A DNA stretch of 64,000 bases from Bacteroidales bacterium (lineage in GTDB: Bacteria > Bacteroidota > Bacteroidia > Bacteroidales > UBA932). This document shows, in pieces, positions 47,891 to 51,443 of the stretch. The notes beneath the pieces are model-generated. The model worked only from the letters and a program-made list of their open reading frames with translations. It had not been told where the DNA came from and did no database searches. Position numbers and translations under genes: made by a program. The stretch's first letter is position 1. Each line of letters begins with the position of its first letter. The stretch is from NCBI GenBank assembly GCA_015060395.1, contig SUYP01000013.1, positions 1 through 64,000 on the forward strand. The letters are read 5' to 3'.

Positions 47891-49498
47891 ATGAGCAAAA
47901 TTGATTTGACCAAGTACGGTATTACCGACGTGAAGGAAATTCTTCACAACCCGTCTTATGAGGTTCTCTTCGCTGAGGAGACAGATCCAAGCCTCGAGGG
48001 ATACGAGAAAGGCCAGCTTACAGAGCTTGATACCATCAACGTAATGACAGGTATCTACACAGGACGTTCTCCTAAGGACAAATTCTTCGTAATGAATGAG
48101 GCTAGCAAGGACACTGTATGGTGGACTTCAGAGGAGTACAAGAATGATAACAAGCCTTGCTCTGAGGAAGCTTGGGCTGACCTCCGCGCAAAGGCGATCA
48201 AGCAGCTCAATACAGCTAAGAAGCTTTATGTAGTTGATACATTCTGCGGTACTAACGAGGCTACACGTCTTAAGGTACGTTTCATTATGGAGGTAGCTTG
48301 GCAGGCACATTTCGTAAAGAATATGTTCATCCGTCCTACAGAGGAGGAGCTTGCAAACTACGGTGAGCCTGATTTCGTATCATTCAACGCTGCAAAGGCA
48401 AAGGTTGACAACTACAAGGAGCTCGGACTCAACTCTGAGACTGCAACTGTATTCAACCTCAAGAGCAACGAGCAGGTTATCCTCAACACTTGGTACGGTG
48501 GTGAGATGAAGAAGGGTATCTTCTCTCTTATGAACTACTACAACCCTCTCAAGGGCATCGCTTCTATGCACTGCTCTGCAAACACAAATATGGAGGGTAC
48601 AAGCACAGCTATCTTCTTCGGTCTTTCAGGTACAGGTAAGACTACCCTTTCTACTGACCCTAAGCGTCTGCTTATCGGTGACGACGAGCACGGTTGGGAT
48701 GACGAGGGAGTATTCAACTACGAAGGCGGTTGCTATGCAAAGGTCATCAACCTCGACCCAGAGTCTGAGCCAGATATCTACAACGCAATCAAGAGAAACG
48801 CTCTCCTCGAGAACGTTACAGTTGACGAGAACGGCAAGATCGATTTCGCTGACAAGAGCGTGACTGAGAACACTCGCGTATCTTACCCTATCAACCATAT
48901 CAACAACATCGCTGTTCCTTCAAAGGGTCCTCACGCTCAGCAGGTGATCTTCCTTTCAGCTGATGCATTCGGAGTTCTTCCTCCAGTATCTATCCTTACT
49001 CCTGAGCAGACTCAGTACTACTTCCTTTCAGGATTTACTGCAAAGCTCGCAGGTACAGAGCGCGGTATCACTGAGCCTACTCCTACATTCTCCGCTTGCT
49101 TCGGTGCAGCATTCCTTTCACTCCACCCAACAAAGTACGGTGAGGAGCTCGTAAAGAGAATGGAGAAGGTCGGTGCAAAGGCATACCTCGTGAATACAGG
49201 ATGGAACGGAACAGGCAAGCGTATCTCTATCAAGGATACAAGAGGAATCATCGACGCTATCCTCGACGGTTCTATCGACAAGGCTCCTACCAAGACTATC
49301 CCTTACTTCGACTTCGTGGTTCCTACAGAACTCCCAGGAGTTGATCCAGCTATCCTCGACCCACGTGACACTTACGCTGACGCAGCTCAGTGGGAGGAGA
49401 AGGCTAAGGATCTCGCAGGCCGCTTCATCAAGAACTTCAACAAGTTCACTGGCAACGACCTCGGTAAGGCTCTCGTAGCAGCTGGTCCAAAGCTTTAA
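47891..49498 (+). CDS. pckA: Phosphoenolpyruvate carboxykinase (ATP)
   Basis: [42 protein letters not shown]. Confidence 0.97.
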
Positions 49499-49594: not shown

Positions 49595-50479
49595 CTATCG
49601 GGTTACGGCGCTATGACAGGTAAGTGCCGCATCAGCATCAGGCAGACATTCAAGATGCCAGCAAGCGACCCTGGATATCACTTTTTCCACAGTCTTATGC
49701 AAAGCGTCAGTCGAGCTTCTGTCCCATCTCATACAGGAGCAGGAAGGCATAAGGGAAGCGTATGCCTGAAGAGGCATATTCCTGACAATCTTGTTATATG
49801 GAGCCTGAGACAGACGTACAACCGCCTTCAACGGCAGGCTTTCATTCTTGTAGCAAGGGGTCTTGCCGCTCCAAGGAGTACCATAAATGACAGCTTCTCC
49901 ATCTGTTACGCGTATCACAGGATTATCATCATTCAGAAGTTCAGTGTCATCTATATTTTCAAGCCACAGGCGGCTGTGGGTACTTTTTCCCGTACCGCTC
50001 CTTCCAAGGAACATATATCCCCCGCCATTATGCTTTATCACCGAAGCGTGTACCATCAATGTATCGAACGGAGTCGTACAGAAGGTATATAGCAGCATCA
50101 GGGCATTGCTTAAAGAAAATTCGGTAAGTCTCTCCTTCCGTGCTGCAGGCACATATACGACATTGTCCCTGAAGTCATCCGAAGGAATGAGGATACAGTC
50201 CGGATGTGAACGTGTGTATGAAAAACCGAAATTGAACTTTCCATCCTTATCGAATATCCAGAAATAAGGTGCCTCGTCATTAAGACACTCTCTGACAGTA
50301 CCCGGAACGGTATTCTTAAGATCAGCGGAATATTCAAGGCGCAATCTGAAGAGGGGTTCATCCTCCCTTCCGGATGAGAAAGGGATATACGGACCGAGAA
50401 AGTCATCAGCTGAAATACCGTCAGGCAGGATCACCTCGAAAAGATGACCGGCCACATCATATTTGAAGGTTTTTTCCAT
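49595..50479 (-). CDS. HPr kinase/PEPCK-like P-loop kinase (HprK-like)
   Basis: MVHASVIKHNGGGYMFLGRSGTGKSTHSRLWL Walker A and LLNDDNPVIRV, GTPWSGK segments. Confidence 0.8.
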   Translation of the reverse strand: MEKTFKYDVAGHLFEVILPDGISADDFLGPYIPFSSGREDEPLFRLRLEYSADLKNTVPGTVRECLNDEAPYFWIFDKDGKFNFGFSYTRSHPDCILIPSDDFRDNVVYVPAARKERLTEFSLSNALMLLYTFCTTPFDTLMVHASVIKHNGGGYMFLGRSGTGKSTHSRLWLENIDDTELLNDDNPVIRVTDGEAVIYGTPWSGKTPCYKNESLPLKAVVRLSQAPYNKIVRNMPLQAYASLMPSCSCMRWDRSSTDALHKTVEKVISRVACWHLECLPDADAALTCHSAVTR

Positions 50480-50521
50480 AATTCTTCAAAGATAGTGATT
50501 TTCTAAGTATTTTTGCAGAAT

Positions 50522-50980
50522 ATGGCTACGATAATAAAAGACAAGGCATTGATGATGGAGGAAATCAGGTCACTGATCTCCGAGGGGCACACGGTCTCGC
50601 TCACTGTAAAGGGCAACAGTATGAATCCATTTTTCGTGAGTCTCAGAGATCAGATGACTCTAGGGCCTTGGAAAGACGAAGATATAAGGAAAGGCTGCGT
50701 CGCCCTGGTCAGAGACACCAAAGGCAACTACCTGATTCACAGAATAATACGCAGACAGGGCGACACCGTCACACTGATAGGTGACGGAAATATAGGCCTG
50801 TATGAAACAGCAAGGCTTGAGGAGATCATCGGAATAATGTACGGTATGACCAGAAAAGGGAAAGTCTGGAGTGCAGACAGCAAGATATGGAAGCTATACT
50901 CCTGGTTCTGGATGCTCATCCTGCCCGTCAGACGCTGGCCTCTCGGTCTGTGGAGGCGTATTTTCCTGAAGAGCCGCTAG
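50522..50980 (+). CDS. S24/S26 family (signal peptidase-like) peptidase
   Basis: VSLTVKGNSMNPFFVSLRDQMTLGPW (catalytic Ser context GNSM), CVALVRDTKGNYLIHRIIRRQGD; C-terminal hydrophobic segment. ATG at 50522 preferred to TTG at 50513. Confidence 0.85.
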   Translation: MATIIKDKALMMEEIRSLISEGHTVSLTVKGNSMNPFFVSLRDQMTLGPWKDEDIRKGCVALVRDTKGNYLIHRIIRRQGDTVTLIGDGNIGLYETARLEEIIGIMYGMTRKGKVWSADSKIWKLYSWFWMLILPVRRWPLGLWRRIFLKSR

Positions 50981-51094
50981 TTTTTTGCGATAGGCATCCA
51001 TCCTTTTTTTCCAGGCAATCTGTCTGGCTCTCTGTTCTTTTGCCTTCCGCGCCTGAAGTTCTTCATATTTCTTTTCAAGATAATTATCTGCCAT
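50894..51094 (-). CDS. Small charged coiled-coil-like protein (MADNYLEKKYEE...)
   Basis: 66-aa ORF whose start is 18 nt from a TATATTTG -7 box on the minus strand (caaatata 51113-51120); Lys/Arg/Glu-rich. 3' end overlaps the S24/S26 gene by 87 bp antisense. Confidence 0.65.
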   Translation of the reverse strand: MADNYLEKKYEELQARKAKEQRARQIAWKKRMDAYRKKLAALQENTPPQTERPASDGQDEHPEPGV

Positions 51095-51129
51095 AGCTTA
51101 TCGATTGTACTGCAAATATAGCAATCTGT

Positions 51130-51160
51130 TTTGTTGAAAAGGAGTTTTTTGATACTTTTG
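51130..51160 (+). promoter_or_regulatory. Promoter of PqqD-like gene: TTTG-N19-TACTTTTG
   Basis: TTTG 51130-51133, 19-nt spacer, TACTTTTG 51153-51160. Confidence 0.75.
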
Positions 51161-51176
51161 CAGAAAATTGAAATAT

Positions 51177-51443
51177 ATGAAGATCAAAGATGGATTCGTA
51201 CTCCGTGAAATGTGCGGAGAAAATATAGTAGCGGCAGAAGGAATAGAAAACATCAATTTCAACAAGCTCATATCCCTGAATGAGAGTGCCGCATACCTCT
51301 GGAGGGAACTTATTGGAAAAGAATTCACTACAGAAGAAATGGCCGAGCTCCTCATAGTCCGTTACGGGATCGACAAGGAGCTGGCGATGACAGACTCCGC
51401 CAATCTTTGCGAAGCCTGGATAAACGCAGGAATAGCAGAATGA
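51177..51443 (+). CDS. PqqD-like peptide-binding protein
   Basis: MKIKDGFVLREMCGENIVAAEGIENINFNKLISLNESAAYLWRELIGKEFTTEEMAELLIVRYGID: PqqD-like pattern (N-terminal strands, LNESAAYLW). ATG at 51177. Confidence 0.82.
   Translation: MKIKDGFVLREMCGENIVAAEGIENINFNKLISLNESAAYLWRELIGKEFTTEEMAELLIVRYGIDKELAMTDSANLCEAWINAGIAE

Follow-up and report, generated by a model that had tools for sequence, protein, structure and literature searches.

A kinase, a leader-peptidase candidate and a PqqD-like protein of a Bacteroidales genome as the probable core of an LPP-like system that serves dispersed precursor peptides in trans

The window, a stretch of 64,000 nucleotides from a Bacteroidales assembly described as gut-type (2.66 Mb in 55 contigs, 89.7% complete), carries between positions 49595 and 51443 all three of the ORFs that an earlier note had read as a cluster of an HprK-like kinase, an S24/S26 peptidase and a PqqD-like protein (Table 1). 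The kinase gene is divergent from the genes for the peptidase and the PqqD-like protein, with 42 bp separating the start codons of the kinase and the peptidase, and shares no operon with them in the window. A putative promoter motif of the Bacteroidales kind, for which TAnnTTTG is the −7 consensus, can be recognized at each of the three genes. The peptidase likely starts at the ATG at 50522, and for the PqqD-like protein the ATG at 51177 is a more likely start than the TTG at 51168.

Table 1. Genes and putative regulatory features of the kinase–peptidase–PqqD-like locus (window coordinates).
Feature	Coordinates	Strand	Basis
KIN, HprK/PEPCK-fold peptide kinase (LppK/PadeK-like), 294 aa	49595..50479	-	weak ScmC/HprK_rel_A matches, motifs, AF2/Foldseek
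S24/S26 (SipW/SEC11-like) leader-peptidase candidate, 152 aa	50522..50980	+	PF00717, S33/H73/D88, SEC11 PDB profile matches
PqqD-like discrete RiPP recognition element (lasso B1/LppB type), 88 aa	51177..51443	+	PF05402, TfuB1 6jx3, AF2/Foldseek
Putative -7 element of kinase gene, TATCTTTG, TAnnTTTG type	50487..50494	-	read from sequence
Putative -7 element of peptidase gene, TATTTTTG	50508..50515	+	read from sequence
Putative PqqD-gene promoter, TTTG-N19-TACTTTTG	51130..51160	+	read from sequence
96-bp PEPCK–KIN gap; ABC exporter gene here in close relatives L148 and L149	49499..49594	.	

The kinase gene is adjoined by an ATP-PEPCK gene (47891–49498), whose product is distantly related to the kinase in fold; this synteny is kept in the clade, and the juxtaposition is probably a coincidence. 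A charged ORF of 66 aa (50894–51094, minus strand; MADNYLEKKYEELQARKAKEQRARQIAWKKRMDAYRKKL...) overlaps the 3′ end of the peptidase gene and is kept in the window's own clade (L148, L151–L157 and others), at times several kb from the trio. We rejected it as a precursor: it lacks a YxxP motif, is charged, occurs in its own clade only and does not always adjoin the trio.

The PqqD-like protein, the single PqqD match in its genome, scores 38.9 bits against PF05402 (cut-off 23.4). Its AF2 model (pLDDT 89.8) displays the winged-helix fold of the recognition elements, with complexes of lasso B1 proteins and their leaders (TbiB1/TfuB1) as the best Foldseek matches in the PDB, and a profile match to TfuB1 (6jx3) was recovered with an E-value of 2 × 10−4. 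Two residues, N35 and D73, are invariant in the Bacteroidales PqqD-like proteins and also kept in TfuB1; judging by sequence context and spacing, they appear to correspond to N33 and D70 of LppB, which hold the Tyr and Pro of the YxxP leader (PMC13381572). The peptidase scores 23.3 bits against PF00717, exactly equal to the cut-off, and its profile recovers signal peptidases from the PDB, SEC11 among them. S33, H73 and D88 are invariant, and a Ser–His pair and GDGN motif like those of SEC11 and SipW are kept.

The kinase reaches no curated family cut-off in Pfam or NCBIfam: it obtains 11.6 bits against Hpr_kinase_C, far from the gathering score of 33.3 for an HPr kinase/phosphorylase, while its best NCBIfam match is to ScmC (E = 8.7 × 10−6; 25.3 bits versus a cut-off of 125), and it matches HprK_rel_A with an E-value of 2 × 10−4 (20.5 bits versus a cut-off of 200). 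Its diagnostic motifs are nonetheless invariant, namely H144, a Walker A GxSGTGKST and NDD184–185, and Foldseek searches with its AF2 model (pLDDT 95.3) recover the PEPCK and HprK/P folds. Searches of PHROGs and PADLOC returned no match. The domain assignments made earlier thus hold, on profile and fold for the PqqD-like protein, on motifs and fold for the kinase, and on PF00717 at its cut-off for the peptidase.

A comparison of 61 relatives found the kinase in 31 genomes, and within the genus the genes for the S24/S26 peptidase and the PqqD-like protein usually come after it. A scan of 84,980 species yielded at least 586 confirmed relatives, and the best 80 of these provided the counts of gene order. 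Among these 80 Bacteroidales loci, the kinase, peptidase and PqqD-like genes are contiguous in 47, with an ABC exporter gene directly following in 37 of those 47 and a PF14907 nucleotidyltransferase gene nearby in 12; an MsbA-like ABC exporter is linked in 48 of the 80. The association noted earlier therefore stands: its domain assignments are sound, and many relatives across the Bacteroidales keep the synteny of the trio. The conserved unit is, however, one of four to five genes rather than the trio alone. In the window's own clade the peptidase gene is divergent from the kinase gene in 14 loci, with the exporter gene after the kinase in 11 of the 14; it is absent between the kinase and PEPCK genes in the window, L151 and L063, the PEPCK itself being 94–99% identical across the clade. 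An exporter homologue is encoded elsewhere in the same genome (C14:6048-7622), unlinked to the trio, with 45% identity to the query exporter and 43–51% to the linked ones, as against 27% for the next paralogue. The sole PF14907 gene of the genome is on contig 9, and linkage of such a gene is seen in a minority of relatives. The earlier observation of a trio with no adjacent maturase, transporter or precursor is accurate for this genome, and the missing parts represent a local, lineage-specific loss. The earlier suggestion of a minimal or orphan system does not hold, given the size of the conserved unit and the presence, elsewhere in the genome, of homologues of the exporter and nucleotidyltransferase missing here. 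By motif, no radical SAM enzyme or cyclase appears to belong to the unit: across 121 loci, the radical SAM motif is carried only by MiaB-like ORFs and the SGGxDS motif of asparagine-synthetase-like cyclases only by MnmA-like ORFs.

Comparison of small ORFs around the best 80 of the at least 586 relatives uncovered ORFs of 41–45 aa just upstream of the kinase gene. By a motif scan and a profile, the latter seeded partly from kinase-adjacent ORFs and the window's own genome, we widened these to a family of candidate precursors of 35–67 aa that have the YxxP leader motif of lasso and LPP peptides and, some 20 residues further on, an almost invariant Ser. The 81 unique peptides have the consensus KKxYxxPEMEVVELxxEGVLLxSS. 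The Pro is invariant by construction because the scan demanded YxxP; Phe or Trp was allowed in place of the Tyr and never occurred. In all but one of the 81 peptides a Ser falls within +18 to +21 (80 of 81; expected, 26%), and this amino-acid motif is conserved in peptides that are otherwise very diverse. The peptides tested gave no Pfam or NCBIfam match. Genomes code for up to 17 precursor-like ORFs, mostly unlinked to the machinery. In the window's own genus no conserved precursor lies next to the trio, and its own genome has six YxxP ORFs on contigs 4, 11, 22 (two), 27 and 42, none of them linked to the trio.

The peptides co-occur with the kinase. Among 198 genomes of the order, 29 of which have a strong kinase match, all seven peptide-positive genomes are kinase-positive (p = 7 × 10−7), as are all five when the genus of the window is left out (p = 4 × 10−5), and within the genus peptides occur in 26 of 29 kinase-positive versus 3 of 8 kinase-negative genomes (p = 0.006), none of the three p-values correcting for relatedness, although related genomes are not independent. 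Conversely, 22 of the 27 kinase-positive genomes outside the genus have no peptide by the present model. Of 59 peptides with a gene start within 130 nt downstream, 9 lie, in relatives of the window's genome, directly upstream of the kinase gene or of a nucleotidyltransferase–kinase gene pair. Taken with the six ORFs on other contigs, this co-occurrence and adjacency support the other option raised earlier, a remotely encoded substrate; the earlier interpretation is borne out in part.

The closest known counterpart is the linear polyphosphorylated peptides (LPP) described by Popov et al. 2026 and studied in Paenibacillus (PMC13381572). These are specified by lppA, lppK, lppB, lppS, lppD and lppN, with one to three precursors inside the cluster: LppK adds phosphates to Ser3 of the core, the leader, whose Ser is at +18, is cut by LppS only with LppB, LppS needs S29, H68 and D93, and LppN and LppD complete the set; they are called restricted to the Bacillota, with the Bacteroidetes going unmentioned (PMC13381572). 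Like LPP, the Bacteroidales set combines a SipW-like Ser–His–Asp peptidase, a discrete recognition element, an HprK-like kinase and an MsbA-like exporter, joined by an NTP transferase in a minority of loci and, by motif, by no cyclase in the 121 loci, and its peptides share a YxxP leader with a Ser shortly after it. In contrast to LPP, the Bacteroidales precursors are mostly unlinked and paired with lipoproteins, the nucleotidyltransferase is optional, and the core genes are scattered in the genome of the window. The peptides share with the LPP leader only the YxxP and the Ser, the exact consensus YxxPxVLxHQxIxFETxxS being absent for want of the HQ and FET. To judge from these sequence features, the Bacteroidales system would work like LPP; it is not filed as LPP in the strict sense because its leaders depart from that exact consensus.

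We consider it probable, from the combined comparative analysis, that the trio forms the core of an LPP-like system of Bacteroidota in which scattered precursors are served in trans. From the retention of N35 and D73 in the recognition element, of S33, H73 and D88 in the peptidase, and of Tyr, Pro and Ser in the peptides, we infer a pathway of binding, Ser phosphorylation, cleavage and export. The PqqD-like protein would bind the YxxP of the small precursors; the HprK-like kinase would phosphorylate the conserved Ser roughly 19–20 residues after the Tyr; the SipW/SEC11-like Ser–His protease, guided by the recognition element, would cut just before that Ser; and the MsbA-type ABC exporter, encoded on another contig here, would export the resulting linear phosphopeptide. 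The PF14907 nucleotidyltransferase may, as an optional step, modify the phosphate further. A single machinery would thereby serve several dispersed precursors, whose genes mostly lie immediately before those for fimbrillin-like surface lipoproteins.

This genomic pairing emerges from the same set of 59 peptides: 48 precede proteins fitting one fimbrillin-like lipoprotein profile, a profile that 28 of 111 background lipoproteins fit as well, and an independent automatic lipobox test labels 36 of the 59 downstream genes as lipoproteins versus a background of 9.6%. The paired lipoproteins vary in their C-terminal parts, which may be fimbrillin-like, LRR, M64 peptidase or nuclease. We therefore hypothesize a surface partnership of the peptides. 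More tentatively, and with the chances slightly against it, one trans-acting machinery might modify and export dispersed phosphopeptides that are each made with their own fimbrillin-like lipoprotein, such that LPP-type RiPPs would partner surface proteins. In the window's own genome, a region resembling a surface-protein island (G000:C22:1860-9142) has two YxxP peptides within 7 kb, flanking lipoproteins with GLUG/fimbrillin-like, BACON, LRR and M64 peptidase domains.

Most peptide ORFs end within about 30 bp of the lipoprotein start or overlap it, a geometry typical of translational coupling. It is thus conceivable, though unlikely, that the YxxP ORFs are upstream ORFs whose own translation is coupled to, or regulates, that of the lipoprotein genes, with the trio acting on something else; the peptides of G032, G007 and G018, which occur despite the absence of a kinase, would fit such a role. 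However, a regulatory ORF would need neither a lasso/LPP leader motif nor a near-invariant Ser, would have no need to co-occur with the kinase or to precede its operon, and would not be expected to conserve an amino-acid motif across such diverse peptides. The G032 genome, a relative from the same genus, has 15 YxxP peptides and a PqqD-like gene (C21:144958-145221; locus L082) with no kinase or S24 match, a pattern that may reflect either assembly gaps or a loss in which the peptides outlasted the machinery.

A lasso-peptide pathway with its macrolactam cyclase encoded elsewhere is improbable to a greater degree. The paeninodin and pseudomycoidin clusters do share with the Bacteroidales set a split B1 element, an HprK-like kinase, a PF14907-type nucleotidyltransferase, an ABC exporter and a lasso-like [YW]xxP leader, and in pseudomycoidin, PF14907 enzymes add a sugar to the phosphate (PMC8498205). 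In contrast to those clusters, the B2 transglutaminase-like protease (PF13471) has no match in the window's genome, the SGGxDS-bearing ORFs of the 121 loci are only the MnmA-like ones, the candidate leader protease is SEC11-like, and the precursors lack the conserved leader Thr.

The SynChlorMet cassette includes the kinase ScmC and the PqqD-like ScmD. The kinase studied here falls far under the ScmC cut-off and has no radical SAM partners nearby, which places it outside that cassette. The HprK-related kinase A systems are alike in kinase fold and differ in partners. The GG-leader RiPPs of Bacteroidales (PMC10352776) were rejected as a match, as they have another leader and C39 exporters. Least probable of all is that polysaccharide or lipid metabolites are the substrates of the kinase and the nucleotidyltransferase, the PqqD-like protein being an accessory, for while the window genome's PF14907 gene sits inside an (exo)polysaccharide cluster and the PqqD–nucleotidyltransferase pairs of L087 and L096 have Wzz and glycosyltransferase genes in their vicinity, most operons of kinase, peptidase, PqqD-like and exporter genes are without nucleotidyltransferase and polysaccharide genes, the recognition element keeps its peptide-binding residues and a protease is present.

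If the LPP-like reading is right, what is new is a second phylum, a machinery that serves many scattered precursors in trans, and a pairing with surface lipoproteins; searches of the open-access literature returned no report of the trio, of the YxxP peptides or of a link between RiPPs and fimbrillins. A Bacteroidales branch, common in gut and rumen, would widen the LPP family. As precursors and machinery can be unlinked in the genome, cluster-based mining would miss such systems. The precursor–lipoprotein pairing would offer a first testable clue to the function of such peptides, and small ORFs matching no Pfam or NCBIfam family would gain a candidate function.

Divergent PqqD-like genes paired with PF14907 genes, without a kinase, are also found at L087, L096, L097 and L101, the pairs at L087 and L096 being paralogous. 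These possibly constitute a separate system linked to capsule or exopolysaccharide.
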